Virus record (IMG/VR): IMGVR_UViG_3300043395_003109
Coordinates: 1 to 61,155 of that record
Source: a virus
Direction: 5' to 3' (one strand)
Length of the DNA stretch: 61,155 nucleotides
The position numbers and the translations under genes were made by a program. This document shows positions 8,146 through 45,463 of the stretch, piece after piece (the stretch's first letter is position 1; the number at the start of each line of letters is the position of its first letter). A model generated the notes under the pieces. That model ran no database searches and was not told the origin of the DNA. It saw only the letters and a program-made list of their open reading frames with translations.

Positions 8146-9981
8146 ATGGCAGATACTACTAAACAAAATGAGGATCTTGCTTGTGTTGCTTTAGGATATC
8201 TGTCATTTTACCCCGAAGCATCGTATGAAGATTTTTATAATTTTATTCAAGCACCTGGTCAAGATTGGAATAAAATTAAGAATGTTTGTCAACTCGAAGT
8301 TACAACAAGTGGAGTCTTTCAAAAAAGATTTGCAAAAGAGGAGATATGGATAAAAGGATCATATATGACTGCTCTTGCAATTCGTCAAAGATTAAATTTA
8401 AATCTTTCTAATTATATTTTTTGTGGAGTGGGATCGAACACAAAAGGAGTTATAAAGCACGGTGCTAAAGGAAATATTGGGGAGATATTAAAAACAAAAG
8501 CAGCATCTGCAATAGCAAAGCTATATAAGTTTAAAACTGGCAAAAGTAGTGGAATTATTGCTAATTTAAATCCAGATAAATTAAATATTTCAGATATATT
8601 TCTATGTCCAAGAAATAATAATTCAAGATTAACAAAATTTTTAAAAATAATTCAAGATGCTGATGATATTAAAACGGATCTTGCGTCAATAAAAAATACA
8701 CTAAGTTCTTTGACTGAAGAAAAGGATATTTTAAAGTTCAAAGGTAGTGTAGTATCAAAATCTAACTTGACAGTAACAAGATACACTCGGATGATGAATG
8801 CATTTTATGAATCAAAAGATGTTATTGGAGTTTCTTTAAAAAAAATATCTCCAGTTCCAGATGATGTTTCAAAAGTACCTTTTTCTTTTCATAGTAGTGG
8901 AAATATTCCTGATGAAAATGTTGATGATGAATTTTTGCAATTCGTAGGACAACTACTTAAATTAGCAAAAAAAGGAAATGTCAAATTTCCCGAATTTGAG
9001 CAAGCAATAGATCAATTTATAACTTTAGATGATAATATTAAGTTTACTACTAATGATAGATTAGAAGTTAAGTATAGTTTTAACTATAAAAATAACACCA
9101 AACCTTATAAAATTTTTACTAATTTTGGTGCGGGTAATAATTTTTATTTCCAACCCGACAAGGCAGGTGGTTATCACGAAGGAGGAACAACAATAACAAG
9201 ATTTGAGGATCTTTGTGATGAGTTTCCACAGTTAAAAACACTTTTTTCTAATCTTTCAAAAAAGAGAGAATTTTATTTTGATAAAGCGTGTAAAAGTAAT
9301 GGATTTACTGGATCAAGTCAACTTTATCAAATTCAAAAAATACCAAGTAACTTAAGACTTTCTAGTGTAAATAAAACAATTTTTGCATCTGGAAATTATG
9401 AGAAATTAATTTCAAAAATTCTTGAAACGACTCAAGGAAAAATTGGTGCAGTGGTTTCAACTGAAAATGGAAAAACAAAAGTTTTAACTGGTGCTTTAAT
9501 TGCTAAAGCAAAAACAAAAACAACTCCTGCCCAAAGATATTATCAAACAAAGTATGAATCCGTAGAAACGAATTATCTAAAAGTTATAGAACAATTTTAT
9601 GAAGAATATACCCAATATTTGTCAAAAAGTAGTAATATGGGGAAATTTGTAAGTTTAAAAAATACTACTTTAAATGAAATGAATAGTTTAATATCAGAAG
9701 CAACTAAAGCAAAAGATAAAAATGAAACTGATAAAATTATGAAAAAAGCAGTTGGAAAAATACAAAAATCATATGCTTTGTTAAGTAATGCTGAATTTGG
9801 ATATATTTTTGCTAAGCACAATTTGCAGATTAAAAAGATACTTAAAAAGAAATTGATCTTGTCTTTATATTCTTTAGCAACTGGAAGGGGGTTTATTATT
9901 TTTAGTGGGAGAAGATTTAAAATCGATGACATTTATGCAGAGAATCTTAAAACTCCGATATATGTTAAGGTTGGTAATTGA
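8146..9981 (+). CDS. Large Lys/Asn-rich ORFan, 611 aa, late-promoted
   Basis: Begins MADTTKQNEDLACVALGYLS. I recognise no family over the full length. Residues about 95-165 read GSNTKGVIKHGAKGNIGEIL, then KLNISDIFLCPRNN; the latter weakly recalls an 'NP(S/A)DIW' segment found in several large phage proteins of unknown or nuclease-like type. The C-terminal third is helical (about 480-575). Coding is AT-rich and differs from the neighbouring early genes. It sits alone between a terminator (8096) and a sigma70-like promoter (9985), behind a late promoter, so it is probably made late as a single gene. A virion-packaged or cargo protein is possible. Confidence 0.8.
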   Translation: MADTTKQNEDLACVALGYLSFYPEASYEDFYNFIQAPGQDWNKIKNVCQLEVTTSGVFQKRFAKEEIWIKGSYMTALAIRQRLNLNLSNYIFCGVGSNTKGVIKHGAKGNIGEILKTKAASAIAKLYKFKTGKSSGIIANLNPDKLNISDIFLCPRNNNSRLTKFLKIIQDADDIKTDLASIKNTLSSLTEEKDILKFKGSVVSKSNLTVTRYTRMMNAFYESKDVIGVSLKKISPVPDDVSKVPFSFHSSGNIPDENVDDEFLQFVGQLLKLAKKGNVKFPEFEQAIDQFITLDDNIKFTTNDRLEVKYSFNYKNNTKPYKIFTNFGAGNNFYFQPDKAGGYHEGGTTITRFEDLCDEFPQLKTLFSNLSKKREFYFDKACKSNGFTGSSQLYQIQKIPSNLRLSSVNKTIFASGNYEKLISKILETTQGKIGAVVSTENGKTKVLTGALIAKAKTKTTPAQRYYQTKYESVETNYLKVIEQFYEEYTQYLSKSSNMGKFVSLKNTTLNEMNSLISEATKAKDKNETDKIMKKAVGKIQKSYALLSNAEFGYIFAKHNLQIKKILKKKLILSLYSLATGRGFIIFSGRRFKIDDIYAENLKTPIYVKVGN

Positions 9982-10208: not shown

Positions 10209-10237
10209 TTGCCACAGCACCAAATTCCTGGTATGAT
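10209..10237 (+). promoter_or_regulatory. Sigma70-like promoter TTGCCA-17-TATGAT
   Basis: TTGCCA at 10209-10214 and TATGAT at 10232-10237 with 17-base spacing, 21 bases before the helicase ATG. It is the only good promoter upstream of the helicase-nuclease-methylase run. Confidence 0.7.
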
Positions 10238-10258
10238 TACTTCATTGATTCTTAATTT

Positions 10259-11503
10259 ATGATTCCCTTTCGCGATCATCAGAATGAATGTCTTGATGCG
10301 ACTGAGATTCATCCTAAAGGTATTATCTGTGCAACGACAGGAGCAGGTAAGACTCTTGTGGGTATTGGTGACACAATAAGAGAGTTCTTGAAAGAAACTC
10401 CACAAACTGTTGTTGTTGTTGCTCCTCGCATTTTGCTTGCGAATCAACTCTCTTCTGAGTATCTTGAGCACATTGATAATGTTGCTGTTCTTCACGTTCA
10501 CTCTGGAGAAACGCATCATTTCAGCACCACTAAACCTGCAGAGATTCAGCACTGGGATCAGATAGTGAGAGTTGCATTTAATCCTGATGCTCCTAAACAC
10601 AAACTAATCTTCACCACATATCATTCCCTTCATAAAATTATGGAAGCAGGAATCAAGGTGAACACAATTCACTTTGATGAAGCACATAACAGTGTGCAGA
10701 AGAACTTCTATGTTGCTACTGAATACTTCAGCAGGAAAGCGGATCGTTGCTATTTCTACACTGCAACTCCAAAGTATTCTTCCACTCCCAAAAAACCTGG
10801 GATGAACAATACTCAGGTTTATGGTAACATCATCGCAAATGTTCCCGCTCCCCGTATGGTGCGAGAAGGTTACATTATCCCTCCCAAGATTGTTGCCAAA
10901 CAAGTGTCTTTGGACAGCAATAATGTATTTGAGCGTGACTGTAATCATCTGCTGGAAAGTATTGATGAAGCAGAAGTTTCTAAGGTGCTTGTGTGTGCCA
11001 AAGCAACCAAACAAATCACCAATCTAATCTCACAAACTGGGTTCTGTCAGGAACTCGAAGATCGTGGATATTCTTGGATGGTCATTACATCTAAGACTGG
11101 TGCAATCATTGATGGACAGAAGGTAAATCGTGAGCAGTTCTTTGATACTTTGCACGATTGGAGTCGTGATGACTCTAAGAAGTTTGTTTTGCTTCATTAT
11201 TCTATCCTGTCTGAGGGTATCAATGTATCTGGACTCGAAGCAGTAATCTTTATGCGATCTATGGATGCCATTGGTATCTGTCAGACGATTGGACGGGTTG
11301 TGCGACTGCATCACAAGGATGCTGCACGACTTCGCTCTGGAGACTTGACACCTGGACGATTGGAAGATTATCATAAGTCGTATGGTCTGGTCATCATCCC
11401 GACCTTCAACTCTGTGGGAATCTCTACTGCTAAGAAGATCCAGAGTGTTGTCGATACTGTATTTCAACAGGGGGAACCTGCAATTTCTACAATTAAACGC
11501 TGA
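10259..11503 (+). CDS. SF2 DEAH-box helicase (UvsW / restriction-helicase type), 414 aa
   Basis: Superfamily 2 ATPase. The Q-like start FRDHQNECL is followed by Walker A ATTGAGKT (residues 25-32), motif Ia VVVVAPRILLANQL, motif II DEAH (140-143), motif III YTATP and motif VI QTIGRVVRLHH (about 343-353). Length and order fit compact phage helicases such as UvsW or the helicase half of type I/III restriction subunits. There is no nuclease domain in this protein. The next gene, two bases downstream, looks like a PD-(D/E)XK nuclease, so helicase and nuclease may act as one split enzyme. UvsW-like replication or recombination helicase is the main alternative. Confidence 0.88.
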   Translation: MIPFRDHQNECLDATEIHPKGIICATTGAGKTLVGIGDTIREFLKETPQTVVVVAPRILLANQLSSEYLEHIDNVAVLHVHSGETHHFSTTKPAEIQHWDQIVRVAFNPDAPKHKLIFTTYHSLHKIMEAGIKVNTIHFDEAHNSVQKNFYVATEYFSRKADRCYFYTATPKYSSTPKKPGMNNTQVYGNIIANVPAPRMVREGYIIPPKIVAKQVSLDSNNVFERDCNHLLESIDEAEVSKVLVCAKATKQITNLISQTGFCQELEDRGYSWMVITSKTGAIIDGQKVNREQFFDTLHDWSRDDSKKFVLLHYSILSEGINVSGLEAVIFMRSMDAIGICQTIGRVVRLHHKDAARLRSGDLTPGRLEDYHKSYGLVIIPTFNSVGISTAKKIQSVVDTVFQQGEPAISTIKR

Positions 11504-11505
11504 TT

Positions 11506-12018
11506 ATGATCGACTTTAACACATTTGAATTGGATCGACTTTCTAAACTCTTGTGGAGTTTGAAAGGTTATACTACTAACAATCTTCGCTTCCCAAAAGC
11601 AGGAGAACTTGTAGAGATTGGTTATGATGTCTATAGCAAAGGACAACTTAAACGTGTCAATCTTCCTGGTGTAGATTTGATTGGAACAGATGGTCATACA
11701 TATGAATCAAAAGTGATTCAGTTCAAAAATGTCTCAAAAGAAGCAGTGAGAGGTGTAATTCTAAAAAACAGTCGCGCAAGTAGTTCTGTCAACGAAAAAC
11801 TTGCCGACTTTTTTATTTTTACTGATGTGAAACTTGGGAAAGCGTGTTGTGTTCCTTCAAATATGATTTACAACACTAAGTTTACTGGTGCAGTTCTTAC
11901 TGGAAGTTGTAATCCACAACAGGATCATTTTTTCCTTCACGGATATGAAGAACAATACGAAAAAGACTATTTTACAGAAGCAGAAGAGTTTGATTATCAA
12001 TATGTAAGGGGGTTTTGA
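11506..12018 (+). CDS. Putative PD-(D/E)XK nuclease, 170 aa
   Basis: Residues 54-70 read PGVDLIGTDGHTYESKV: Asp57, nine residues, then Glu67-Ser-Lys69. This is the D...(E/D)xK metal-binding pattern of restriction-like nucleases, with a hydrophobic strand on each side. A later strand ADFFIFTDV fits the fold's next core strand. An acidic residue in the first helix (AGELVEIG) could complete the site. Family assignment is by motif only. Position between a DEAH helicase and an adenine methylase supports a role in DNA cleavage. It ends overlapping the next start by one base. Confidence 0.6.
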   Translation: MIDFNTFELDRLSKLLWSLKGYTTNNLRFPKAGELVEIGYDVYSKGQLKRVNLPGVDLIGTDGHTYESKVIQFKNVSKEAVRGVILKNSRASSSVNEKLADFFIFTDVKLGKACCVPSNMIYNTKFTGAVLTGSCNPQQDHFFLHGYEEQYEKDYFTEAEEFDYQYVRGF

Positions 12019-12197
12019 TGGAAGGATTTATTGTTGGTAAGAACGGTGAATATGCTGCAGTGCCATTTGGTAAAAAAGGATATATAATTATCCATAATGG
12101 TCAGCAATTAGAAAAAATTTGCAGAACAGAATCATCTGCACGAAAGTATATTGCTGATCATAAGAAAGGAAAATCTGTAGCAAAGTTACCAATATGA
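12018..12197 (+). CDS. Small hypothetical protein, 59 aa
   Basis: Reads MEGFIVGKNGEYAAVPFGKK, then a helix SSARKYIADHKKGKS. Likely a beta hairpin plus helix. It is located between the putative nuclease and the methylase and coupled to both (TGATG before, ATGA after), so it is probably co-produced with them. Function unknown. Confidence 0.7.
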   Translation: MEGFIVGKNGEYAAVPFGKKGYIIIHNGQQLEKICRTESSARKYIADHKKGKSVAKLPI

Positions 12198-13030
12198 GAT
12201 ATACCTCTACAAGTTTATACCGCTATGCTGGTGGTAAAAACACTATGAAAGATGAGATCATTAAGATTATTGATGAGATTCATCCTAATCTTACGCATAT
12301 GATGTCACCTTTTATGGGTGGAGGTTGTATTGAACTTGCTCTTGCAGCAAGAGGTGTAAAAGTTCAAGCATATGATCTATTTCAACCACTTGCTGACTTC
12401 TGGGAGATTCTAACAACAGAAGGTGGAAAAAGATTGGGTGAAGAAGCAGCAAAGCATTATCCTCTAAAAGATAGAGAACACTATAAGTCTTTTCTTCCTC
12501 TTTTAGAGAGTGATGATAAGTTCACTCGCGCTTGGGCGTTTTACATTTGTATCAAAGGTGCATTTAGTGGAGATCTTGGTCATACATCAGAATCCTCCAG
12601 AAAGAATCTAAATCTTGCTGGTATTCATAAGTTAATCGGATTCTACAATCCAAACTTCTCATTCTCCTTTGGGAATTGTTTTGACACAATCCCAAAGCAT
12701 CAGAATGATTTTATGTATTTGGATCCTCCTTACTATAAAACTACATCATATTATTATGGTATTGATGGAAGCACTCACGAAGGATTCAATCACGATAAAC
12801 TTGCTGATGTCTTGAAGGAACATAAAGGTGGGTTCGTGATGTCTTATGACAACACAGATTACCTTAAAGATCTTTATAAAGATTGGACTGAGTTTCGCTA
12901 TTTGGAGTTTGATTATCAGATGGCAGGAGATGTAAGTTGCAGAGGAAAGAAAACAGAACTCATTATCATCAAATATCCAGAAGTGAAGGTGGAATCTAAT
13001 CCAAATGCTTTAGAGAGTTTATTGTACTGA
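12194..13030 (+). CDS. dam: D12-class N6-adenine DNA methyltransferase (Dam-like), 278 aa
   Basis: Transfers methyl groups from SAM to adenine in DNA. D12-class landmarks are in order: YAGGK (residues 11-15, motif X), SPFMGGG (38-44, SAM-binding motif I), and the catalytic DPPY (177-180). Length is that of Dam/DpnM enzymes. The target sequence cannot be told from these motifs. It is the third recognisable enzyme of the operon and could protect phage DNA from the putative nuclease or from a host restriction system. A hairpin follows the stop directly. Confidence 0.9.
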   Translation: MRYTSTSLYRYAGGKNTMKDEIIKIIDEIHPNLTHMMSPFMGGGCIELALAARGVKVQAYDLFQPLADFWEILTTEGGKRLGEEAAKHYPLKDREHYKSFLPLLESDDKFTRAWAFYICIKGAFSGDLGHTSESSRKNLNLAGIHKLIGFYNPNFSFSFGNCFDTIPKHQNDFMYLDPPYYKTTSYYYGIDGSTHEGFNHDKLADVLKEHKGGFVMSYDNTDYLKDLYKDWTEFRYLEFDYQMAGDVSCRGKKTELIIIKYPEVKVESNPNALESLLY

Positions 13031-13050
13031 GGACAGTTGGAGAACTGTCC
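13031..13050 (+). terminator. Perfect 8-bp hairpin after dam
   Basis: GGACAGTT, loop GGAG, AACTGTCC, immediately after the methylase stop. There is no T run, so it may attenuate, process or stabilise the mRNA rather than terminate. The GGACAGTT core recurs in the hairpin at 17314 and, with one change, at 24997. Confidence 0.6.
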
Positions 13051-13145
13051 TATGACTCTTGCGCTTCTCTCTCATTTGATCTATATTGGTTTTGTTGGAA
13101 GGCAGTTGTCACTCCAACATTCCTTAGCAAATTGCTTTTAACTTA

Positions 13146-14144
13146 ATGACTTTTCGTAAAATTGATTTCCCTTGCGGCAAACCAGAAGTAAAATGGTATT
13201 TGGATGAATGTAAGACTCCTAAGTTTAACAGCGTCTATTCTATTGGGTTTCAAGTCCGTGAGATTGGAGAACTAAAGAATGAGAATGATGCAGGTCAAAA
13301 ATTGAATCCTGCACGTTCTCAAGGTATTGACTATAATAACGTCAATACTCTTCAATATAGTTTTGTTAATCAGGGTGTTGATACTTCTATTATGCCTCCT
13401 ATCATTCTTCCTGATGGGATTGTTATTGATGGTAACAACCGTGTTGAAGCATATCGTCAAATTGGAGCACAATATGTTGTTGTATATTGTGTAGAAATTA
13501 ACGAAGGTTTTACGATTGATGATGTCTATGATGAGGTTGGTTTGGGTATGAACAATCACCTTGTCTCAAAACCAATGACTATGAAAGATTGTAAAATCCG
13601 CCTTCAAAAGTATTTTGTTCGGATTGACCAATTTGATGCTGTAAAGGGTATTGAATGGTTTAATACTTTTAATCACAGTTTCTCCGATAAAGAAATTGCA
13701 GATGCAGTTAAATCAGTTATTCAAGGTAAACGTGTATCTGATACAATGTCACCTTATAACAAAAAAACTGTTTCTGATTACATTAAACAGAGGAATCTTG
13801 ATTCCAACACAACACTGTTGCCTTTGCACGTAAATGTAAAAGATAGTCGCAGTTCTATGCACTATTTTTGTCGTGAAGTTATCAATGTTATTGACACATA
13901 TAACAAAACAGGCAAACTTCCTGAACTTGTTGGATTCCTTAGTAACTGTGAAGCAGAAGATGCTGATAATGAGCGTCAAAAAATGAAAAAAATTGTTGAT
14001 GAATATAACAAAAAAATCAACAATGTTTTGATGCTTTATAAAGCAGCAGAAACTGATGGTGAAGAGTTCAAACTTCTTAAACTTGAGAAATGGATGGGTC
14101 AAGTTACTAATGTTGAGACTGATATGATTATCGTCAATAGTTGA
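13146..14144 (+). CDS. ParB/Srx-like domain protein, 332 aa
   Basis: Residues about 84-118 contain PPIILPDGIVIDGNNRVEAY followed by RQIGAQYVVVYCVE. This is the ParB N-terminal fold signature 'G-N/H-x-R-x-x-A/Y...G' used for nucleotide binding or hydrolysis in ParB and Srx relatives. The C-terminal two thirds are helical and Lys-rich with no known HTH recognised. ParB-like domains are often encoded beside phage methyltransferases, which agrees with the gene order here. It is the last gene before a strong terminator; 115 bases separate it from dam, including a hairpin. Confidence 0.75.
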   Translation: MTFRKIDFPCGKPEVKWYLDECKTPKFNSVYSIGFQVREIGELKNENDAGQKLNPARSQGIDYNNVNTLQYSFVNQGVDTSIMPPIILPDGIVIDGNNRVEAYRQIGAQYVVVYCVEINEGFTIDDVYDEVGLGMNNHLVSKPMTMKDCKIRLQKYFVRIDQFDAVKGIEWFNTFNHSFSDKEIADAVKSVIQGKRVSDTMSPYNKKTVSDYIKQRNLDSNTTLLPLHVNVKDSRSSMHYFCREVINVIDTYNKTGKLPELVGFLSNCEAEDADNERQKMKKIVDEYNKKINNVLMLYKAAETDGEEFKLLKLEKWMGQVTNVETDMIIVNS

Positions 14145-14156
14145 GTAACTATTCAA

Positions 14157-14180
14157 GGGTGCTTATGCACCCCTTTTTTT
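14157..14180 (+). terminator. Strong Rho-independent terminator
   Basis: Stem GGGTGC, loop TTAT, GCACCC, then C and seven T. It closes the helicase-nuclease-methylase-ParB unit. Confidence 0.9.
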
Positions 14181-14185
14181 ATTCT

Positions 14186-14209
14186 TGTGACAGATGTGAA
14201 AGTGTCACA
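14186..14209 (+). repeat. Palindromic repeat, copy 1 (TGTGACA...TGTCACA)
   Basis: Inverted arms TGTGACA and TGTCACA with inner sequence GATGTGAAAG. The other copies are at 26920 and 27339. In each case it lies just ahead of a promoter-like sequence and a new gene, suggesting an operator. Confidence 0.7.
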
Positions 14210-14213
14210 AGGT

Positions 14214-14244
14214 TTGTCGCAGGGGTCGCAGGAGACCCTATACT
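14214..14244 (+). promoter_or_regulatory. Promoter candidate TTGTCG-19-TATACT
   Basis: TTGTCG at 14214 and TATACT at 14239. The 19-base spacing is longer than ideal. It lies directly downstream of palindromic repeat copy 1 and 29 bases before the gene at 14274. Confidence 0.45.
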
Positions 14245-14273
14245 TACAAGGTAATCAACGGAGACAACTCCAA

Positions 14274-14699
14274 ATGGCAACGCGAGGTCGCATTGGTATC
14301 GAACTTTCCGATGGTTCTATTCTCTCATCGTATCACCATTGGGACAGTTATGAATCTTGGTTGGGTCGCATCCTGAAAACTCATTATAACTCTTATGAGA
14401 AAGCATCAGAGTTGATTGATGGTGGTGATATGTCTTGCTGTTGGACTGATGAAAAGTTCCGCACTGCTGAAGGTGTAGAGAATAAGGTAGAGTATGGTCC
14501 TCAGTATTATTCTGAGCGTGGTGAAGATACTCCTCCTCGCCTTGATGCTGACCTTTGTGAGTATCTTCTGCCTGGTAACAGTGAAGAGTTCCACTATGTC
14601 TTCCGTAATGGCGAATGGGTATGCTATAATATGAATCAGTTCGATGATAACAAACTTCCTGAAGTTGTTGAAATCCCCTCTGCTGCTCTTGCTGTTTGA
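14274..14699 (+). CDS. Conserved cyanophage-type hypothetical protein, 141 aa
   Basis: ATG at 14274 gives MATRGRIGIELSDGSILSSY; the longer reading frame from 14187 would translate the palindromic repeat and promoter. It contains ASELIDGGDMSCCWTDEKF. I recall this 'RGRIGI...HHWD.Y..WLG..L' pattern from cyanophages and bacterial relatives without a known role. The cysteine pair may bind metal. Confidence 0.85.
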   Translation: MATRGRIGIELSDGSILSSYHHWDSYESWLGRILKTHYNSYEKASELIDGGDMSCCWTDEKFRTAEGVENKVEYGPQYYSERGEDTPPRLDADLCEYLLPGNSEEFHYVFRNGEWVCYNMNQFDDNKLPEVVEIPSAALAV

Positions 14700-33496: not shown

Positions 33497-36400
33497 ATGA
33501 CAGAAACCAGAATTAAAATCAGTTCCATCGTTGAAAATCAACTACCTCAGTTTGTTTTAGAAGAGTTTCCTCTTGTTTCCGAATTTTTATCACAGTATTA
33601 CATTTCCTTAGAAAGTCAAGGAAATGTAAGTGATATACTTCAAAATATTGATCAATATATCAAAGTTGATCAATTAACAAATTTAGTAGAATCGACAGTT
33701 TTAACATCTGATGTAACTTTTTTTGATTCTACGATTAATGTCTCCTCTACTGCAGGATTTCCAAATTCTTACGGTCTTTTATTAATTGATTCCGAAATCA
33801 TTACATATACTTCAAAAACCCCTACAACTTTTGAAGGATGTATTCGTGGTTTTAGTGGCGTAACTTCTTATAAAATAAAAGATGAATTAACTTTTACAGA
33901 AACTGAGTCACAAGAGCACATTGCTTCTGCAACTGTAACAAATTTAAGTATTCTTTTTCTAAAAGAATTTTTAATTAAGGTCAAAAAACAAGTAACTCCT
34001 GGATTTGAAGAAAGAGAGTTATATTCTGAATTAAATGAAAATCTTTTTATTAAACAGTCTATAGATTTTTATTCCTCAAAAGGAACTGATAATTCTTTTA
34101 AAATTCTTTTTGGTGCCTTATATGGACAAGAAGTTGAAGTTATTAAACCTAGAGATTATTTAATTCAACCATCTGATGCACAATATAGAATTACTTCGGA
34201 TTTAGTTGTAGAAGAAATTGAAGGAAATCTAGAGAATCTTGTTAATACAACAATTTACCAAAAAAATAGTGATGATGAGATAATTGCACAAGGAACTGTC
34301 TCAAAAGTCGAAAAAATTAGAAGGGGATCAAAAAATTATTATACATTATCTTTAGATTCTGCGTATAATAATGATATTGGCGCAAATGGCACTGTTTATG
34401 GAAATTTTGTTATTCACCCCAAAACAAAGACTATTCTAACAACACTTTCTGGTTCTAATACCTTAGATGTGGATTCTACTGTTGGATTTCCAAAAACAAA
34501 TGGAAATATTACTATAGATCTTGAAAATGGAACTTCTTTAAATATCACTTATACTTCAAAAACATTAAATCAATTTTTTGGATGCGAAGGTATTAATCAA
34601 GATATTCCAGAATCCACAGAAATAAAGATAAATGAATTTGCTTATGGAAATTTTTCTACAAATACCATAAAATTTAGAATATTAGGTGTATTATCTGATG
34701 TCAATGTTCCAGGTAATACTATCTTTTATTCAAAAGACGATACTATAAAGATAAAGACCTTAGGCATAGATCTTAAAGACTATAAAGCAAATAATTGGTT
34801 CTTTAACATTCCGGTAAAGTATGAAGTAAAATCTATAGAACTTTTAGATAACTCCGATAAATCATATAGAGTTAATCTCTATGATGATCATTTCTTTAAG
34901 ATTGGAAATTCGGTTTCATTATTGTCTTCAAGTGGAATAGAGTACACTGGATTTGTTGTTTCATTTATTAACGAAAAATCATTTAGTATTCAACTTGGTT
35001 CTAAAAGTGACTTATTGGATACAAATCTTCTATATTTTGCTAGAAAAAATGTAACGAAAGTATTTTCAGAAAATTATCCTTCAGTAAATCAATATACGTC
35101 AAACGTTCAAAATATTTACTATGAAAATAGTAAATCTTTATATGTTTCTTCACCATCACTTCCAACTTATTTAAATCAAACCTTAAAAATAAACGACCGT
35201 TCAACATCTTTTAGTGGATCTTTCAGTGGCACTACTTTAGAAATTGGAAAGCATGGATTTTATACAGGTGATTCAATAGTTTATAAACCAACATCCACAA
35301 ACACTTTAGGAATATCTACTGGTGTTTATTTTATTAAAAAAATAAGTGATACTCAAGTAAAAATCGCAAGAAGCAGAAATAATATCTTCACGGAAAATTT
35401 TGTTTCTGTTGGTGGAACTGTTACAAATGCAAGGTTTGAACTTACAGATTTTACTTATAGAGATTTAAGTACTCAATTACTAGAATCCCAAAAGTTAATT
35501 AGAAAAATTGCAACTCCAGAAAATGATGGAAATACATATGAAACACATCCTGGGTTAACTGGTATTTTTGTAAATGGTGTTGAAGTTCTTAACTATAAGT
35601 CAAAAGATAATGTTTATTATGGTCCAATTGAAAAAATTATTCCAATAGCACCTGGATCTGGATATGATATCATTAATCCACCAGTCGTAACTATTACTGA
35701 TCCTGTTGGAACAGGAGCAGTAGCAAATTGTTCTGTTGTGGGTGGTTTAAAAAGAATTGATATTGTTGATCCTGGATTTGATTATCTAGAAGATCCAAAA
35801 ATCAATATTACGGGAGGAAATGGATCAGGTGCAGTTGCTGTTGCAAAATTAATCAGTTTTGATCACTCTATTTCTTTCAATTCACAAGGATCTGCAGGTT
35901 TGGTAAAACTAAATCCAACAAATACAATTGGATTTTCGAGTCATCATAAGTTTAGAGATGCGGAAGAAGTTGTTTATGTTACTGATGGTCAATCATCTAT
36001 CGTTGGTGGAATATCAACAATAAGTGGACTATCTACAAACTCAACTTATTATGTTTCAGTCCAAGATGCATTTAATATAAAACTTCATAAATCATTTGAA
36101 GATGCTGTTGCTGGCATTAATACATTTCAAATTACCTCTTACGGAATAGGAAATCATTCGTTTAAATCCAAGAATAAAAAGAAAAAAATTGGATCTATTA
36201 TAGTAGAAAATAGTGGCGTCAATTATCAAAATAAGTTAACAGCAACAAGTATAAGTGGAATTAATACTGCGCTTAACGTTGTTACAATAACGGATCATGG
36301 ATATCAAAGTGGAGAGATTATTGTATATAATGCAACAGAAACTCCTGTTGGAGGTCTCTCATCTAACACTTCTTATTATGTAACTAAAGTAGATGATAAT

Positions 36401-39400
36401 CATTTCAGACTATCTCAACTTGGAATTGGTACTATAGGAGTTACAACTTCTTTTTACTATGACACCAAACAATACATTAATTTAACTTCTGTTGGTAGTG
36501 GAACACATAAGTTTAATTATCCAGAAATTCAAGTAACTGTTACTGGAAGAATTGGAGTCTCTACACTTTCTGGTCAAAACTTTGATGCAGTTCTTCAACC
36601 TGTTTTTAGTGGAGAAATTCAATCTGTATTTGTTCAGTCTGAAGGTGAGAAATATGGATCGGAAGAAATTATAAACTATAATCGGCAACCACTATTTGAA
36701 TTAAATTCCGGCTCAGGAATTCAACTAACTCCTATCATATCAAATGGGCAAATCGTTGATGTTTTAATCAATAGTCCTGGAAGTGGATATAATTCTCCAC
36801 CAACTCTTCAAATTAATGGAACTGGTGTAGGTGCAATATTGACTCCTATATTATCAAATGGATCTTTAGTTGAAGTAAAAGTAATTTATGGTGGAATTGG
36901 ATACCAATCTTTAAATACTTCGATAGATGCAATACCTGCAGGAAGTGGTGCTAAACTAGAAGCTCAAATAAAATCATGGAAAATAAATTTAGTTGAAAGG
37001 TTAATACAAAATTCTCAAATAGCAGAGGACGATGGAATATTATCATCGGGATTAAATGCTGATTATGGTTTAGAATATTCTCATGCATATGCTCCTAGAC
37101 AATTAAGATCTTCTGTTCAAGCAACAAGGTTTAGAGATGGAAAAAATGTATATGTACCAGATTTACAACTTTTAGATAACAAGGAAATTAATTCGTCTGC
37201 ACACTCTCCGATAATTGGGTGGGCATATGATGGAAATCCAATTTATGGTCCTTATGGATATACATCAAAAACTGGAGGTGCAGTAAAATGCCTGGTTTCT
37301 AGTTATCAACTATCATTAAAAGCAAATAGACCAAAAACTTCGATTTATCCTCAAGGATTTTTTGTAGAAGACTACACTTATTTTGAAAATGGTGATCTTG
37401 ATGCGAACAATGGCAGATTTGGAGTTACTCCAGAGTATCCAAATGGAGTTTATGCATACTTTACAACCATCAATCCAGGTTCAATTGAATCATCTGGTCT
37501 ATTCTCAAATTACAAAAAACCAGTCTTTCCCTATGTTATAGGACCTTCATATAAGTCTAGACCAATTGATTTTAATTTTGAAAGCGTTTCCAATCAAGAT
37601 AATATTGATATAAACCAAACTGGATGGAGAAGAAATATTAGTCCTTACAATATTTCACTATATGATTATATTTTAAATCCAAATTCAATCAAATCTCAAA
37701 ATTCAATTGTTAAAAGTATTTCTGCAGGATCTGTAGATTCTATAGGAATAGAGACCGGAGGACAAAACTATAAAGTTGGAGATAAAGTTTCCTTCAACGG
37801 ATCTTCTATACAGAGTGCTAAAGCAAAAGTCTCATTAATAAAAGGAAAACTAGTTAATCAAATTAGTGTTGCAACTTCTTCCTTTGATGATGTTCAATTC
37901 TACCCTTTTAATAGAGAATTTATTGGATTTACCTCAGTTCCACACAATTACTTAAATAATGATTTGGTAACATTTACGGGTAAATATGACTATAAGAGAT
38001 CTGGTAATATAACTGTTAATACAAATAACCTTTCTCTTACTGCAGGCGTTGGATCTGCACAATATACTGGTCTTGTTACTTACTTTAGTGTCGCAGGGAA
38101 CTTAAATTATCCCAATATCAAAGAAAATGATACATATCAAATTGGAAATGAAGATGTTAAAGTTTTAAATATTGATCTTCAATCAGCAAGAATCAGAGTT
38201 CTTCGTAATCAAAATGGAACTTCAGGAATAACTTCTTATTCTGCAGGAATTGCACTCACAGAAAAAACCAGAAAATTTAAATTGAATTTTGGAATTTCAA
38301 CCTCATATAATTTTGATATTGATAAAGAATTTTATTTTGATCCAAAAGAATCTGTTGGACTGGGAACAACTTCGGGTGTTGGAATAGTAAGTACAATTTA
38401 TTTTTCAAATCCAGGTGTGGGAGTTACTCAACTTACAATTCTTCCACAGTCCATTTATATTAAAGATCATAATTTAAACACAGGAGACTCTTTAGTTTAT
38501 TCTTCAAATGGAGGAACTAGAATATCAGTCTCTACTGATGGTTCTTCTTCTTTTGTACTTGAAGAAAAATCAATTGTTTATGTTGCGAAAATTTCCAATG
38601 ACCTTATTGGTATTTCTACAATTAAAGTCGGAGTAGGATCAACAGGTTCTTTTGTTGCTGTAGGGGTTGGATCAACACTTCAAAGTGGTATTTTATATTT
38701 TGCCTCCGTTGGTACAGGAAATACTCATAGTTTTAAAACAAATTATTCAAATACTTTATCTGGACAAATTAATAAAAACGTAGTAACTGTTTCTACTGCA
38801 GAAACTCATGGACTGTCTTTACTCGATAATGTAACAATTAATGTAAGACCAGGAATTTCTACTACATTTGCAATTAACTACAATGATTATAATAGAAGAC
38901 TAGTAGTAAATCCAAGAATTTTCTCTACAATCGATACAACAAATAGTATCATTACAATTAACAATCACAGATATTATACTGGCCAAAAAGTCATCTATAC
39001 TGCAACAACTCCTGCATCAGGACTGGTTAATCAGGGAATTTATTATGTTGTAGTAATTGATTCAAATAAAATTAAATTATCCAATTCTTATTATCAAGCG
39101 ACAAAATCTGTTCCAGAAGTTATTAATATCTTAACTTCTCAACCAGGAACTATTTCTCCAATAAATCCACCAATAAGTTTGATAAAAAATCAAACTATAG
39201 TTTTTGATCTCTCTGACACATCTCTATCATTTATTGGTGCTGGTATTACTTACTCTGCATTTGATTTTAGACTCTATAAGGATCAACAATTTAAAGAAGA
39301 GTTTAATACTACAGAATCATCAACTATTTTTGAACTAACTAAAAACGGAAATATTGGGATAGATTCAACTGCAAAGGTTACATTATCATTAAATGATGGT

Positions 39401-42400
39401 GTTCCAACCAACTTATATTATAAATTGGTTCCTATTAATTTAGATCTAAATTCTCAAATTAAAAAAGAAATTATAATTGATAGTGATATTTCAGGGTACA
39501 ATCAACTTACTTTATTAGAAAGTGGATATAATGGAAACAAAACTGTTGTAGGTGTTTCCTCTACTTCATTTAAATACAATATTTTAGAGACTCCAGAATC
39601 TAGTTTATATTTCGATGGAATAGAGTATTTTACAAATTCAAATTCAGTAACTGGTTCAATTCATCAAATTAACTTAGTAAATGGAGGAAGAGGTTATAGT
39701 TCTTTACCAGGAATTACTTCTGTTATATCGGAATCTGGAACTGGAGCAATTTTAAATCCCAATAGTAATTCTATTGGAAAAATTACTTCTACTGAAATCC
39801 AGGATATTGGATTTGAATACCCTTCAGATTACAGCATAAGACCAACATCAAAACTTCCAGAAATATTAATTCTTGATTCCTTATCAACTTTTGATTATAT
39901 TGGAATTAGTTCTTTTGGTAGAAATTATAATACTACACCAAATCTAGTAGTCATTGATGGGTTGACAAACAAAGTTATTAATGATGTTATTTTAACTTAT
40001 CGCAGAGGGGACTCTCAGGTAACTATCTTAAAAAATAGCACTGAAATTAGCAAAGCAACTCCAAAAATAATTCCAGTAAATAATTCAAATGGTGTTAAGA
40101 TTAAAAATATAACTTTTAATAATTCTACGAAAGATGTTACAGTAACTTTAGGTGCTAGTTTCAGTAATGCTCAAGACTTTCCATTTTTTGTAGGCGAACA
40201 AGTTTTAATTGAAGGTGTTACTGTTGGAATAGCAACAACAGGGAAAGGATACAATTCAGCAAATTATGACTATGCACTGTTTACTATTAAATCTGTAGAT
40301 CCAAACATTGGTGGGGTGAATGGAATTGTTACTTATAGTCTATCAAATTATATTTTAGATGGTGAAATTCCAGGTAACTTTAATAGTTTCTACTCCTCTG
40401 GAAAGATTGTTCCCAAATCACACTTCCCAGTATTTAATCCAGTCCTTAAGAAAAATAATTTTTATGAAGGAGAAGTTGTTTATTCATCTTCTGCTTCAGG
40501 AAATGTAGAATCTTGGGATCCCAATAATCAATATTTAAAGGTTAGTACTGTTGGTGATTTTAATACAAACGAAATTTTAAGAGGTGAAGCATCAGGTTCA
40601 GCAGCTCTAATTAAGAGTGTAATAACACTGGACTCTAGTTATACGGTAAGTTCATATTCTAAACTGAGAAAAGGGTGGAATACTGAAACTGGATTTTTGA
40701 ACAACAATTTCCAAAGAGTACATGATAGTGATTACTATCAATATTTCTCATATGCTCTTAAGTCTCAAAAAGATTTAGATACTTGGAATAATCCGGTAAG
40801 TAATTTAAATCATACAGCAGGATTTAAAAAATTTGGAGATTTAGTAATTGAATCAAATTCACTGTCTTCTGGAATTACAACAGAGCAAAATCTAGGTGAT
40901 TTCTCAGGAACAGCAGATTTATCAAGATTTATTGATCTTAATTGCGTGCCAGATTTTGATCTTGCAAGAGAAAATAATTTACTTATTGATGGAGTCGTTT
41001 CCTCTGATGAAATAATCTTTAATTCTAGAACTATACAGGATTACATAGAATCCATTGGCAATAGAGTTTTGATGATTGATGATATTTCATCTCAATTCAA
41101 TAGTAATCCAAGATCAACCACTTTTAGTGTTGTTGATTCCTTTATCCTTAACGATTTTAGATCTCAAAAATATTTTATTTTAGTAAAAGACCGGAAATTA
41201 ACTACCGAAGTTCAAGCCTCTCTTGTATCATTAGTTCATGATGGTAGCACTGGATTTTTGAATCAATATGGAATGTATTCCTCAAATGATTTGGGATTCT
41301 TTGATTTTAATATTACTGGAAGCGAAGGAAATCTAGTATTTTATCCAAATAAATTTAAGTTTGATGATTATTATACTGCAAATCTATCATTCTCATTAAA
41401 TGATGTGGTTAGTGGAGTTGGAACAACTGATTTGGGAGATTCTGTTCGTATTAGAACAACCACTTCTACTATATCAACTGGAACTAGCACCTCAACAACA
41501 ATCGTTGGTATTGCATCTACCTATAGATCATCAAAAGTTTTAGTTCAAATTGGTGCAACAGATTCTTCTTACTATGAATATGATGAAATTACATACATTC
41601 ATAATGGATCTGAAGTTTTCTTCATAGATTATGGCCAGATAACTACCGATAATTTACTTTCAAAATCAACCTCTGGAATAGGAACGTATAATGCATATAT
41701 TTCTGGTAATAATGTAGTAATTGATTTGATACCAAGTAGTTCCACAACAGTTGATTATGTAGTTAATACTTTTAACGTTTCCCTCGCAAACACAAGTTTA
41801 AGTGGAGTTGGAACACAAACAATTGGAGGTGCTAATCTAAACTCATCTTCCGTATCGATTGCGTCCAGCACTTCTCCAATTGCAAACATAATTTCAAGTT
41901 ATTCTAATACAACTAATGATTGCTCATACTCAATTATTAGTATTGAAGATAAAACAAATTCTCAATATCAAATTTCTGAATTTTTAACAATTACGGACTT
42001 AGTTAACAATAATTGTTACATATTAGAATTTGGAACCTTAAATTCTGGTAATTCTCTTGGAATAACAACCGCCGGTATTTTGGGTTCAACTACAAAAACT
42101 TATTTTACACCAATATCAAATATTGATGTTGATGTTAAAGTATTCCAAGTTGCACTATACTTATCAAATGAATCAAGTCAAATATTATTGACTAACGGAG
42201 GTATTCATTATGATTATGGAACTTATGTGGGAACTGATAATGATATTAAAAAGAATTTTAATTTAACTCATAAAAATGATCCCATCTTCCAAAAATATTT
42301 TGATGGAAGTAGTTCTTCTATTGTAAGAACAAATACTGATGTCATTAGAATTCCAAATCATTTCTTTGTTACTGGGGAAGAAGTTCAATATTCTTATTCA

Positions 42401-45400
42401 GGAACAGGATCGGGTTCTATTGGAATTGCAACAACTTCTATAGCAGGAATTGGAACGACCGATAAACTACCATCGACACTATATATCGTCAAAATTAATG
42501 ATCTAGATGTTCAAGTAGCATCTTCAGCATCTAATGCTCTAAAATCTATTCCCAATGTTTTGGATATAACCTCAGTTGGAATAGGAACTTCCCATATTTT
42601 CACATCAAAAAAACAAAATAACAAATCAATCATTAGTATTGATAATTTAATACAATCACCTGTAACATCAACTGCGGTTACAACCACTCTCTCAAGTAAC
42701 CTTGGACTTTTTAATTCGCAAATATCAGTTTCTGGTATTACATCAATATTTGGAGGGGATTTAATTAAGATTGATGATGAAATTATGAGAGTTACTTCAG
42801 TTGGTGTTGGAAGTACAAACTCAATTTCTGTTTTAAGACCTTGGTTAGGGACTGGATTATCAACACATACTTCTTCTGCTCTTGTTACAAAAGTTTTAGG
42901 CAATTACAATATAATTGAAAATACAATTTATTTTGATGAAGCGCCATATGGAAAAGTTCCCATTTTAAATCCATCAAATAGAGGAGATGAGATTGATTTT
43001 GTGGGAATTGCCACTGGATCAACATTTACGGGAAGAGTATTCTTAAGGTCGGGAGAAGAAGATACATCTATAGAACCTTACACCAAAAATTATATATTTG
43101 ATGACATTTCAAATCAATTTAATGGTATCGATAAAACTTTTGTTTTAAAATCTAGTGGATCAAATGTTACTGGAATATCAACTGATAATGCTATTGTTTT
43201 AATTAATAGTATATTCCAAGGACCAAATTCACCAAGCATTACTGATAATTATGATTTAGTAGAAAATGCAGGAATTACTACGATCACTTTTATTGGAAAT
43301 TCCGCTTCGTCCACTTATGATATAAACACTGCAGGTGTTCCTAGAGGTGGAATTATTCTATCAATAGGTTCTAGTCAAGGGTTTGGATATCAACCACTTG
43401 TAGCGGCAGGTGGAACTGCCATTGTATCCTCTGCGGGAACCATCCAATCAATTAGTATTGGAAACAGTGGTTCTGGTTATAGGGTTGGAATTCAAACTTT
43501 TGTACGTGTTGGAGTTAAAACTGAAAGTACTGGAATTCCGAACATTGAATTCATTGGAACTGCATCGGTTAATAATGGTCGCATAGTTAGTGTTGCTATT
43601 ACAAATCCTGGCATTGGATATACTTCATCAAATCCTCCTATTGTTGTTTTTGATTCTCCATTATCATATTCCAATTTACCTTTAGTTTATAGTTCCCAAT
43701 CATCTGGTATTGGAACTGGTGCTATGGTAGATATCGTTGTTGGACAAGGATCTAGTGTGATTTCATTTGAATTGAAAAACTTAGGTTATGGTTATAAACA
43801 AAACGATATCTTAACAGTTTCTATTGGAGGAACTGCTGGAATTCCTACAGATACTTCCTTAAGTTTTTCAGAATTTGAAATCTCTGTTGATAAAATTCAG
43901 TCTGATAACTTTGCTGCTTGGTCAGTCGGAAGACTTCAAGTAATAGATCCATTAGATAATTTATTTGATGGGAACAGAAAAACTTTCCCAATTCTTATAG
44001 ATGGAAATCAGACGACAATTAGGTCTAAGAAAGGATCAAACATTGATGTTCAAGCAACCCTATTAGTCTTTATCAATGAAGTTCTTCAAATCCCAGGAAA
44101 AGGATATACCTTCAGTGGAGGAAGTATTATAAGATTTACAGAAGCTCCAAAAGAAGGTGATACTTCAAAACTTTTATTCTATAGAGGAACTGGAGATTTA
44201 GATACACAAACTGTAGATATATTAGAGACAATTAAAGTTGGTGATAGTGTAACACTAAAAGATGATACGCCTCTTCTAACACAGGAAGGAAGAGTTGTAA
44301 CTGAAATTACTTCTTCCGATGTGATTAATACCAATCTTTATCCTGGTCCAGGAGTAACTGAAAATGAAACATTACTTAGACCATTAACATGGTGCAGACA
44401 AACCGAAGATATAATTGTAAATGGATCTTATGTGGGTAAAGACAGAACCATTTATGAACCTTATGTCCAACCAAGCACAAACATCATTCAAAATGTGAGC
44501 ACCGCATCTACAGAAATTTTTGTAGAGAGTGTTAAATCATTCTTTGATAGTGAAAGAGAATACGTTCATGATGGGACAACGGAAAAACCACAAAATAAAA
44601 TTCTGATTATATCTCAAGATACCATAACATCTGCTGCCGCTACTACTGTAGTTTCTTCTTCAGGAACTGTTTCTTCGATTGTTATTTCTGATGGCGGAGT
44701 TGGATATTCAACCACACCTACGATAACAATCGCAGCTCCAATTGGTTTTGGAACTACTGCTGCACAAAATACAGCAAAGGCATCTGCAACTATATCTGGG
44801 GGAGTTGTAACAGGAATTGCAGTAACAGTTGCTGGACTTGGTTATTCATCATCAGAACCACCTTCTATTTTAATTGAATCACCTGTATTTAAATATGAAA
44901 TTATAGATAGAATTTCTTATGAGGGTGACTTTGGAGTAATTACTGGAATTAAGACTACCACTGTTGGAGTTGCATCAACTGGAATTGTATTTGATTTCTT
45001 TATTCCCAATAATTCCCCCCTAAGGGATGGGAGTAGTGTAAAGGTTGGTGTCGCAACGACTGGAATTAGTGGAATTCAGACAGGTTACTATTTTGTAGTG
45101 TCCAAATCAAACGTCGGAAAAGGACTCACATCACTCAATTTATCTGGTGGCGCTGTGGGCGTAGGAACAACATTCATAGACAATATCTATCAAGTCGCTG
45201 CAGTATCAATCGCACAAACTGCAGTGCCAGGTGTTGGTATTACTAATGTTGCTAAAGTTACAGTAAGTGTCTCTGGATATAATGGTTTAACGGGTCTTGG
45301 ATTCAGTGGTTTCTATGGTGAATATAGTTGGGGAAGAATCTTAACACCAGTTCGTTCTACATCAGAACAGTTTACAACATATGCAAATACAGGCGGAATT

Positions 45401-45463
45401 TCAACTTCACCAATAGTCCAAAGATATAATAGATTGAAGTACATTGGTTATTCAACCTCATAA
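33497..45463 (+). CDS. Giant virion structural protein with YHYH-type domain, 3988 aa
   Basis: One uninterrupted frame of 11.9 kb. The N-terminus (LPQFVLEEFPLVSEFLSQYY) is typical of the large cyanophage structural protein next to gp6. It carries three recurrent units: 'E-I-I-T-Y-T-S ... R-G' modules (for example residues about 95-125 and 3095-3130); repeats of type PGSGYNSPPTLQINGTGVG (several copies, near 720, 1100, 3300, 3730); and 'H-x-F-x-(T/S)-G' turns. At about residues 1170-1330 lies the YHYH-like segment HSPIIGWAYDGNPIYGPYGY. A baseplate-attached fibre or adhesin scaffold is the most likely role. YHYH domains occur in bacterial surface proteins. No chaperone-release peptidase motif was recognised. 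Confidence 0.85.
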   Translation: MTETRIKISSIVENQLPQFVLEEFPLVSEFLSQYYISLESQGNVSDILQNIDQYIKVDQLTNLVESTVLTSDVTFFDSTINVSSTAGFPNSYGLLLIDSEIITYTSKTPTTFEGCIRGFSGVTSYKIKDELTFTETESQEHIASATVTNLSILFLKEFLIKVKKQVTPGFEERELYSELNENLFIKQSIDFYSSKGTDNSFKILFGALYGQEVEVIKPRDYLIQPSDAQYRITSDLVVEEIEGNLENLVNTTIYQKNSDDEIIAQGTVSKVEKIRRGSKNYYTLSLDSAYNNDIGANGTVYGNFVIHPKTKTILTTLSGSNTLDVDSTVGFPKTNGNITIDLENGTSLNITYTSKTLNQFFGCEGINQDIPESTEIKINEFAYGNFSTNTIKFRILGVLSDVNVPGNTIFYSKDDTIKIKTLGIDLKDYKANNWFFNIPVKYEVKSIELLDNSDKSYRVNLYDDHFFKIGNSVSLLSSSGIEYTGFVVSFINEKSFSIQLGSKSDLLDTNLLYFARKNVTKVFSENYPSVNQYTSNVQNIYYENSKSLYVSSPSLPTYLNQTLKINDRSTSFSGSFSGTTLEIGKHGFYTGDSIVYKPTSTNTLGISTGVYFIKKISDTQVKIARSRNNIFTENFVSVGGTVTNARFELTDFTYRDLSTQLLESQKLIRKIATPENDGNTYETHPGLTGIFVNGVEVLNYKSKDNVYYGPIEKIIPIAPGSGYDIINPPVVTITDPVGTGAVANCSVVGGLKRIDIVDPGFDYLEDPKINITGGNGSGAVAVAKLISFDHSISFNSQGSAGLVKLNPTNTIGFSSHHKFRDAEEVVYVTDGQSSIVGGISTISGLSTNSTYYVSVQDAFNIKLHKSFEDAVAGINTFQITSYGIGNHSFKSKNKKKKIGSIIVENSGVNYQNKLTATSISGINTALNVVTITDHGYQSGEIIVYNATETPVGGLSSNTSYYVTKVDDNHFRLSQLGIGTIGVTTSFYYDTKQYINLTSVGSGTHKFNYPEIQVTVTGRIGVSTLSGQNFDAVLQPVFSGEIQSVFVQSEGEKYGSEEIINYNRQPLFELNSGSGIQLTPIISNGQIVDVLINSPGSGYNSPPTLQINGTGVGAILTPILSNGSLVEVKVIYGGIGYQSLNTSIDAIPAGSGAKLEAQIKSWKINLVERLIQNSQIAEDDGILSSGLNADYGLEYSHAYAPRQLRSSVQATRFRDGKNVYVPDLQLLDNKEINSSAHSPIIGWAYDGNPIYGPYGYTSKTGGAVKCLVSSYQLSLKANRPKTSIYPQGFFVEDYTYFENGDLDANNGRFGVTPEYPNGVYAYFTTINPGSIESSGLFSNYKKPVFPYVIGPSYKSRPIDFNFESVSNQDNIDINQTGWRRNISPYNISLYDYILNPNSIKSQNSIVKSISAGSVDSIGIETGGQNYKVGDKVSFNGSSIQSAKAKVSLIKGKLVNQISVATSSFDDVQFYPFNREFIGFTSVPHNYLNNDLVTFTGKYDYKRSGNITVNTNNLSLTAGVGSAQYTGLVTYFSVAGNLNYPNIKENDTYQIGNEDVKVLNIDLQSARIRVLRNQNGTSGITSYSAGIALTEKTRKFKLNFGISTSYNFDIDKEFYFDPKESVGLGTTSGVGIVSTIYFSNPGVGVTQLTILPQSIYIKDHNLNTGDSLVYSSNGGTRISVSTDGSSSFVLEEKSIVYVAKISNDLIGISTIKVGVGSTGSFVAVGVGSTLQSGILYFASVGTGNTHSFKTNYSNTLSGQINKNVVTVSTAETHGLSLLDNVTINVRPGISTTFAINYNDYNRRLVVNPRIFSTIDTTNSIITINNHRYYTGQKVIYTATTPASGLVNQGIYYVVVIDSNKIKLSNSYYQATKSVPEVINILTSQPGTISPINPPISLIKNQTIVFDLSDTSLSFIGAGITYSAFDFRLYKDQQFKEEFNTTESSTIFELTKNGNIGIDSTAKVTLSLNDGVPTNLYYKLVPINLDLNSQIKKEIIIDSDISGYNQLTLLESGYNGNKTVVGVSSTSFKYNILETPESSLYFDGIEYFTNSNSVTGSIHQINLVNGGRGYSSLPGITSVISESGTGAILNPNSNSIGKITSTEIQDIGFEYPSDYSIRPTSKLPEILILDSLSTFDYIGISSFGRNYNTTPNLVVIDGLTNKVINDVILTYRRGDSQVTILKNSTEISKATPKIIPVNNSNGVKIKNITFNNSTKDVTVTLGASFSNAQDFPFFVGEQVLIEGVTVGIATTGKGYNSANYDYALFTIKSVDPNIGGVNGIVTYSLSNYILDGEIPGNFNSFYSSGKIVPKSHFPVFNPVLKKNNFYEGEVVYSSSASGNVESWDPNNQYLKVSTVGDFNTNEILRGEASGSAALIKSVITLDSSYTVSSYSKLRKGWNTETGFLNNNFQRVHDSDYYQYFSYALKSQKDLDTWNNPVSNLNHTAGFKKFGDLVIESNSLSSGITTEQNLGDFSGTADLSRFIDLNCVPDFDLARENNLLIDGVVSSDEIIFNSRTIQDYIESIGNRVLMIDDISSQFNSNPRSTTFSVVDSFILNDFRSQKYFILVKDRKLTTEVQASLVSLVHDGSTGFLNQYGMYSSNDLGFFDFNITGSEGNLVFYPNKFKFDDYYTANLSFSLNDVVSGVGTTDLGDSVRIRTTTSTISTGTSTSTTIVGIASTYRSSKVLVQIGATDSSYYEYDEITYIHNGSEVFFIDYGQITTDNLLSKSTSGIGTYNAYISGNNVVIDLIPSSSTTVDYVVNTFNVSLANTSLSGVGTQTIGGANLNSSSVSIASSTSPIANIISSYSNTTNDCSYSIISIEDKTNSQYQISEFLTITDLVNNNCYILEFGTLNSGNSLGITTAGILGSTTKTYFTPISNIDVDVKVFQVALYLSNESSQILLTNGGIHYDYGTYVGTDNDIKKNFNLTHKNDPIFQKYFDGSSSSIVRTNTDVIRIPNHFFVTGEEVQYSYSGTGSGSIGIATTSIAGIGTTDKLPSTLYIVKINDLDVQVASSASNALKSIPNVLDITSVGIGTSHIFTSKKQNNKSIISIDNLIQSPVTSTAVTTTLSSNLGLFNSQISVSGITSIFGGDLIKIDDEIMRVTSVGVGSTNSISVLRPWLGTGLSTHTSSALVTKVLGNYNIIENTIYFDEAPYGKVPILNPSNRGDEIDFVGIATGSTFTGRVFLRSGEEDTSIEPYTKNYIFDDISNQFNGIDKTFVLKSSGSNVTGISTDNAIVLINSIFQGPNSPSITDNYDLVENAGITTITFIGNSASSTYDINTAGVPRGGIILSIGSSQGFGYQPLVAAGGTAIVSSAGTIQSISIGNSGSGYRVGIQTFVRVGVKTESTGIPNIEFIGTASVNNGRIVSVAITNPGIGYTSSNPPIVVFDSPLSYSNLPLVYSSQSSGIGTGAMVDIVVGQGSSVISFELKNLGYGYKQNDILTVSIGGTAGIPTDTSLSFSEFEISVDKIQSDNFAAWSVGRLQVIDPLDNLFDGNRKTFPILIDGNQTTIRSKKGSNIDVQATLLVFINEVLQIPGKGYTFSGGSIIRFTEAPKEGDTSKLLFYRGTGDLDTQTVDILETIKVGDSVTLKDDTPLLTQEGRVVTEITSSDVINTNLYPGPGVTENETLLRPLTWCRQTEDIIVNGSYVGKDRTIYEPYVQPSTNIIQNVSTASTEIFVESVKSFFDSEREYVHDGTTEKPQNKILIISQDTITSAAATTVVSSSGTVSSIVISDGGVGYSTTPTITIAAPIGFGTTAAQNTAKASATISGGVVTGIAVTVAGLGYSSSEPPSILIESPVFKYEIIDRISYEGDFGVITGIKTTTVGVASTGIVFDFFIPNNSPLRDGSSVKVGVATTGISGIQTGYYFVVSKSNVGKGLTSLNLSGGAVGVGTTFIDNIYQVAAVSIAQTAVPGVGITNVAKVTVSVSGYNGLTGLGFSGFYGEYSWGRILTPVRSTSEQFTTYANTGGISTSPIVQRYNRLKYIGYSTS

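Follow-up and report, generated by a model that had tools for sequence, protein, structure and literature searches.

Restriction-modification (R-M) is usually viewed as a bacterial defence against phages. Virus-encoded systems of a type II-like kind are known from the chloroviruses (Chlorella viruses), whose restriction endonucleases are accompanied by methylases and are thought to degrade host DNA. In T4-like cyanophages, adjoining nuclease and methylase genes occur in Syn19 as an annotated R.RsaI and methylase; a 2010 comparison of 16 cyanophage genomes did not use the word "restriction" (PMC3037559). Here we analysed a 61-kb window, i.e. the whole 61,155-nucleotide stretch of IMG/VR virus record IMGVR_UViG_3300043395_003109, whose proteins resemble those of T4-like cyanophages of Synechococcus and Prochlorococcus (Kyanoviridae). 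It carries a cassette encoding a helicase (P0001), a predicted nuclease of 170 amino acids (P0002), a 59-aa protein, an adenine methylase (P0003) and a ParB-like protein (P0004), which is identical in the closest contig of our collection (L002). We consider it reasonably likely that this locus belongs to an island of exchanged type II-like R-M modules in lytic T4-like cyanophages, with P0002 as the cutting and D12-class methylases as the protecting component. Unlike the chlorovirus systems, which belong to viruses of eukaryotic algae, involve unrelated proteins and have experimentally established functions, the function proposed here is derived from sequence and a structural model.

P0002 (11506-12018, plus strand) is very probably a PD-(D/E)XK nuclease, as judged from invariant residues and a predicted structure. 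Residues E37, D57, E67 and K69 do not vary among 98 full-length copies, a set with redundancy between samples, or among 41 non-redundant homologues, one of them from the phage isolate S-SM1 (35% identity). In an AlphaFold2 model built from the 41-sequence alignment (pLDDT 86.8, pTM 0.86), E37 lies in the helix spanning residues 26-43, D57 opens the strand 56-60, and E67 and K69 sit on the strand 65-70. This canonical order of helix Glu, strand-start Asp and ExK strand reproduces the superfamily core, in which a conserved Asp and a (D/E)xK motif occupy adjacent strands next to a helix-borne Glu, and the active-site geometry of the model is that of NhoI/Eco15I and other PD-(D/E)XK enzymes (PMC11347163). 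When the model was compared to the PDB with Foldseek, ranks 1 to 25, with probabilities up to 0.99, were all nucleases of PD-(D/E)XK type (NhoI, Eco15I, PvuII, NaeI, Hjc, I-Ssp6803I and the SPARDA nuclease), the best matches being the restriction enzymes NhoI/Eco15I and PvuII. The nuclease call made for this protein by the first-pass annotation, an earlier reading of the same letters, is thus borne out computationally, and the PD-(D/E)XK core expected from structure prediction is present in the model. The protein is under strong purifying selection, with dN/dS of about 0.05-0.12 against six relatives, at synonymous sites near saturation.

Two known enzyme groups come closest to P0002. It shares with PvuII the D-X9-E-x-K spacing (PvuII residues D58/E68/K70), a Y-E-x-K strand, the fold and a length of about 160 aa, while no homology to PvuII is detectable by hidden Markov model and phages that carry P0002 show no avoidance of CAGCTG, the site of PvuII. 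With the BisI family (NhoI, Eco15I), the source of the best Foldseek matches, it shares the helix Glu, the Asp opening the second strand and the catalytic Lys. These two solved structures require methylated cytosines, and P0002 could likewise be a modification-dependent nuclease directed at modified host or rival DNA, needing no protecting methylase, a reading with which the many P0002 loci lacking a nearby methylase and the lack of an avoided palindrome shared by carriers would both agree. We give this reading little credence, since the invariant E67-S-K69 of P0002 is the ExK of PvuII and not the QxK active site (QVK/QIK) of NhoI/Eco15I, the next Foldseek match, PvuII, is not modification-dependent, and a P0002 homologue is coupled to a methylase gene in three contigs described below (L066, L069, L099). 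PvuII is itself named as the closest canonical relative of NhoI/Eco15I (PMC11347163).

The P0002 family is, on the evidence of its sequences and predicted fold, an unannotated family of putative nucleases, named by no profile library that we searched. Single-sequence searches of Pfam, PHROGs, NCBIfam, PADLOC and the PDB returned nothing convincing, nor did family members and a family profile compared to Pfam and the PDB. Relatives were found at 85 loci on viral contigs, with S-SM1 as the sole isolate, and none was recovered from bacterial or archaeal genomes by a pattern-based search. Eleven contigs lacking P0002 were also searched and yielded none, in a search that had no positive control.

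The gene immediately upstream encodes P0001 (10259-11503, plus strand), an SF2 DEAH helicase of cyanophage cluster T4-GC 36 (GC36), as indicated by profile matches to ResIII (2e-16), DEAD (1e-11) and phrog_16 (5e-52) and by motifs at residues 26 (Walker A), 139 (DEAH), 168 (TAT) and 342 (motif VI). It is not an orthologue of UvsW, since Syn19 has one gene for UvsW (GC138) and another for the GC36 helicase. Among cyanophages the helicase gene is nearly core, with cluster matches in 421 phage records against a single isolate (S-SM1) with P0002, and an N6A-methylase and a helicase are among the genes found in 14 of the 16 genomes compared in 2010 (PMC3037559).

The first-pass annotation had likened helicase, nuclease and methylase to a type I/III restriction system split over separate proteins, and one version of that idea deserves consideration, namely that helicase and P0002 work together as a single nuclease driven by ATP, in the manner of a type III Res divided between two proteins, and that the methylase supplies the modification. 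As in type III Res/Mod systems, a ResIII-family SF2 helicase adjoins a PD-(D/E)XK nuclease, in the same order as in Res. The helicase lies directly upstream in 80 of the 85 P0002 loci, most commonly with a 4-nt stop/start overlap, in contigs that are not independent of one another, and helicase and nuclease identities correlate across 48 loci (Spearman 0.86). Against a split Res stands the fact that the two are separate genes and that the helicase mostly occurs alone: among the 56 closest helicase loci in IMG/VR, P0002 is present in 11 and absent from 41, with 4 ending too early to tell, and nearly all isolates have the GC36 helicase without it. Sister phages whose helicases are 81-91% identical to P0001 lack P0002, a P0003-type methylase and a ParB-like gene alike; in the closest of these (L123, 91%), all three are missing behind the same upstream genes. 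Conversely, four contigs (L066, L069, L099, L105) hold a P0002 homologue after gp44, away from any adjacent helicase, the GC36 helicase of L069 lying about 74 kb off. Between the window and L012, DNA identity is about 0.5 ahead of the P0002 start codon and 0.75-0.9 from precisely that point on, which indicates that the nuclease has been joined to a different helicase. Unrelated R-M pairs, complete in themselves, can also fill the slot behind the helicase, enzymes of the PvuII fold need no ATP, the methylase is of the D12 class, unlike that of type III systems, and no HsdM or HsdS of a type I system was found among the proteins scanned. We therefore regard a split Res as unlikely, and P0001 is probably not part of the restriction module. 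Of what the first-pass annotation proposed, the nuclease with its unvarying D/E/K residues stands, while the single split enzyme does not, the genes being scattered among homologues apart from the frequent helicase-nuclease adjacency, and the methylase and ParB-like genes varying independently.

Comparison of related loci instead revealed a recurring frame, composed of the helicase, a first slot, the 59-aa ORF (12018-12197, plus strand; phrog_33194-like), a second slot and, in nearer relatives, the phrog_1987 gene (14187-14699, plus strand). Helicase, 59-aa ORF and phrog_1987 gene are the upstream, second and downstream anchors of a variable island, and the five genes do not make up a constant unit. 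In the window, P0002, P0003 (12194-13030, plus strand) and, as separate cargo, P0004 (13146-14144, plus strand) fill this frame. Elsewhere P0002 stands by itself in the frame, or is joined by a second ParB-like gene (L003-L010), by a second ResIII-type helicase together with an Mrr-like protein (L129), or by a Mom protein (PF25680, 2e-36) together with a helicase-like protein of 766 aa and another protein of 294 aa (L014). Other phages have different cargo: Mom and an MvaI/BcnI enzyme (PF15515, 5e-40; R.MvaI, 3e-14) whose gene overlaps an N6_N4 methylase in L128; a 217-aa protein of PD-(D/E)XK type, with a conserved E..GD..WEIK motif, overlapping an N6_N4-type methylase in L123 and L203-L205; an HNH-like protein, so called from a motif seen by eye, with Pfam silent and PADLOC weak, overlapping a P0003-type methylase in L189 and L194 (helicase about 45% identical); and little at all in L130-L135. 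The MvaI/BcnI pair occupies the same island as P0002, behind an 84%-identical helicase, although its nuclease is of another family and its methylase gene overlaps directly. In L025 and L026 the pair of 217-aa protein and methylase adjoins a frameshifted remnant of P0002 (L025:8001-8228, and the same place in L026) that has lost residues 25-134 and with them the active site. This variety upholds the more general suggestion of the first-pass annotation, an R-M-like cassette in a lytic phage, since the island of sister phages holds other R-M-like pairs.

The Mom-family DNA-modification proteins (PF25680) of this island lie at L014:11926-12600 and L128:4394-5053, and a NUMOD3 (homing-type) protein occupies the island slot at L147:1787-2503. 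At L129:4954-6920 the second ResIII-type helicase stands beside a nuclease-like protein (weak Mrr_cat_2), and Bellamy gp85-gp87 (L032:7513-10811) combine a second ResIII-type helicase, a nuclease-like protein and an Eco57I-type methylase. These two loci are better candidates for a split helicase-nuclease-methylase system than the cassette of the window.

The mobility of P0002 could also reflect a free-standing homing endonuclease spreading into the site behind the helicase, next to an unrelated methylase. Such a process would account for an insertion site that is constant in most phages across divergent helicase backgrounds, for the patchy distribution, for the deletion remnants in L025 and L026 and for the NUMOD3 protein in the same slot of L147, and the PD-(D/E)XK homing enzyme I-Ssp6803I is among the Foldseek matches. 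However, no co-conversion tract is seen at the 3' end of the helicase gene in the one comparison made (L012 and the window), P0002 has a second location before a Dam gene, it is under strong purifying selection, and several other cargoes of the slot are R-M pairs rather than homing genes, making homing quite unlikely. A more speculative idea, to which we would give only a slim chance, is that the GC36 helicase serves as a docking motor for whichever nuclease follows it (PvuII-like P0002, MvaI-type, HNH-like or Mrr-like), so that lytic cyanophages would have an ATP-driven restriction machine with exchangeable cutting subunits.

For the type II-like reading that we favour, the second location of P0002 is informative. 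In L066, L069 and L099 its homologue stands directly ahead of the core Dam methylase GC161, followed by gp62, and in the two of these loci read gene by gene (L069, L099) the two reading frames overlap; in L105 the contig ends after the homologue. About 1 kb further on, L069 and L099 carry a pair homologous to the R.RsaI and methylase of Syn19, which resembles P0002 and its neighbour in having adjoining or overlapping nuclease and methylase genes in a T4-like cyanophage, and differs in nuclease family and genome position. Because P0002 adjoins Dam in three contigs, is replaced by R-M pairs in sister phages and persists as a decayed copy beside another such pair, it probably represents the nuclease half of a type II-like module. 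The near-core helicase would then mark the upstream edge of an island in which modules for nuclease and methylase pass from phage to phage. P0002, as a small endonuclease of PvuII/BisI fold, would most likely cut a short DNA sequence when this lacks the adenine methylation of the phage, and thereby destroy the host chromosome or the DNA of competing phages, while the phage's own DNA would be shielded by D12-class adenine methylases, either P0003, the core Dam encoded between gp44 and gp62, or both.

P0003 belongs to the D12 class of N6-adenine DNA methylases, with a DPPY motif and a match to PF02086 (2e-19, 70.7 bits against a cutoff of 22), and its closest structure is 7m6b (2e-19). It falls outside the NCBIfam Dam family TIGR00571 (57.3 bits against a curated cutoff of 114.85), and shares 28% identity with P0010, a methylase of core-Dam type whose gene in L069 is coupled to that of the P0002 homologue. 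P0003 as an obligate partner of P0002 was dropped as a candidate, since either gene occurs without the other. A core Dam gene is also present in the genomes of S-SM1, L003 and L107 (frame-split in L107), in which P0002 lies behind the helicase, so that a genome-wide methylase partner is possible without a nearby one.

Several observations weigh against a type II-like module. The Foldseek E-values of P0002 are modest (2e-3 at best in the PDB) and its TM-scores low (0.35-0.41), so that the evidence extends to the class of fold and not to close kinship. A methylase gene is close to the nuclease gene in the window, with one 59-aa ORF between, and coupled to it in L066, L069 and L099, whereas at most helicase-P0002 loci the few kb downstream contain no methylase gene, and any partner in those phages would therefore have to lie elsewhere. 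One P0002-bearing contig of 153 kb, which may be incomplete, has no D12 or N6_N4 methylase, and P0003-type methylase genes occur without P0002 in many loci. Lastly, among 4- and 6-bp palindromes there is none that P0002 carriers consistently lack, and thus no target site can be named; both this result and the missing methylases weaken the reading. Alternatively, the methylase might do no more than protect the phage against host restriction, and P0002 might degrade host DNA in general or act in recombination, unconnected with R-M: methylases of P0003 type and of the core Dam type are often encoded with no nuclease alongside, and T4-like phages are generally known to encode host-degrading nucleases. 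The fold and motif of P0002 are nevertheless those of sequence-specific restriction enzymes and the island of sister phages holds clear R-M pairs, leaving this alternative a low probability in our estimation.

Among the palindromes, AGCT, CATG and GTAC are avoided in genomes with and without P0002. The S-SM1 genome (L223-L226, L266-L268, L027) contains no GTAC, against about 387 expected in 140 kb, and no CCGG, against about 113 expected. GTAC would thus be suggested as the P0002 target, but a relative whose nuclease is 84% identical to that of S-SM1 (L112) has three GTAC in 5.6 kb; CCGG is missing also from parts of phage genomes that have no P0002, among them Syn19, where the 100 kb read lack CCGG and contain GTAC. 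Separately, ACGT is strongly depleted in 120 kb read of G008, the phage of L003 (8 found, 138 expected), with no such depletion in the other genomes compared.

All five ORFs, the promoter and the terminator described by the first-pass annotation are present where it had placed them, and genes are spaced by 2 nt or overlap, except for 115 nt ahead of the ParB-like gene. The sigma-70-like promoter (10209-10237, plus strand; TTGCCA-17-TATGAT with TG before the -10 box, i.e. an extended -10, 10 of 12 matches) is of a common kind, with 16 consensus matches in the region against 14 expected by shuffling. Its sequence is conserved ahead of most related GC36 helicase genes aligned, whether or not a nuclease follows, and for this reason we assign it to the helicase gene. 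Directly after the methylase stop lies a strong hairpin overlooked by the first-pass annotation (13030-13052, plus strand), AGGACAGTT-GGAG-AACTGTCCT, a perfect 9-bp stem without a T run (-14.1 kcal/mol for 13026-13062); given this hairpin and the 115-nt gap, the ParB-like gene could be transcribed apart from the others. P0004 (phrog_27790) is a ParB-like protein with a ParB/sulfiredoxin N-domain, an assignment that is weak by sequence (ddrB-ParB, 6e-4, under the cutoff) and is suggested by Foldseek, whose top matches are ParB N-domains (5e-5) for a low-confidence AlphaFold2 model (pLDDT 49). Methylase and ParB-like genes are gained and lost independently across relatives, and P0004 was dropped as a component of the system, window-type loci numbering only two and the others having more divergent versions. 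An intrinsic terminator, GGGTGC-TTAT-GCACCC-CTTTTTTT (14157-14180, plus strand), closes the cassette. The phrog_1987 gene beyond it probably starts at 14274, since homology of its predicted product begins at about residue 30. Upstream of the helicase, a 611-aa protein (8146-9981) has no significant Pfam or PHROGs match, and has homologues at the same position in L123, L125 and L128 (83% and about 31% identity). Two very long ORFs of the window, of 3988 aa (33497-45463) and 2613 aa (47040-54881), probably encode virion or tail proteins.

An R-M module-swapping island of lytic cyanophages, and the unannotated nuclease family within it, are possibly new: we searched the open-access literature, and an earlier description may exist elsewhere. 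Taken as a whole, complete R-M modules, with nucleases of at least three types, seem to change hands at one fixed genomic position among lytic T4-like cyanophages, viruses that are major agents of mortality in marine Synechococcus and Prochlorococcus. If P0002 works as proposed, it could bear on the breakdown of host DNA, on exclusion between co-infecting phages and on the strong palindrome avoidance in these genomes.

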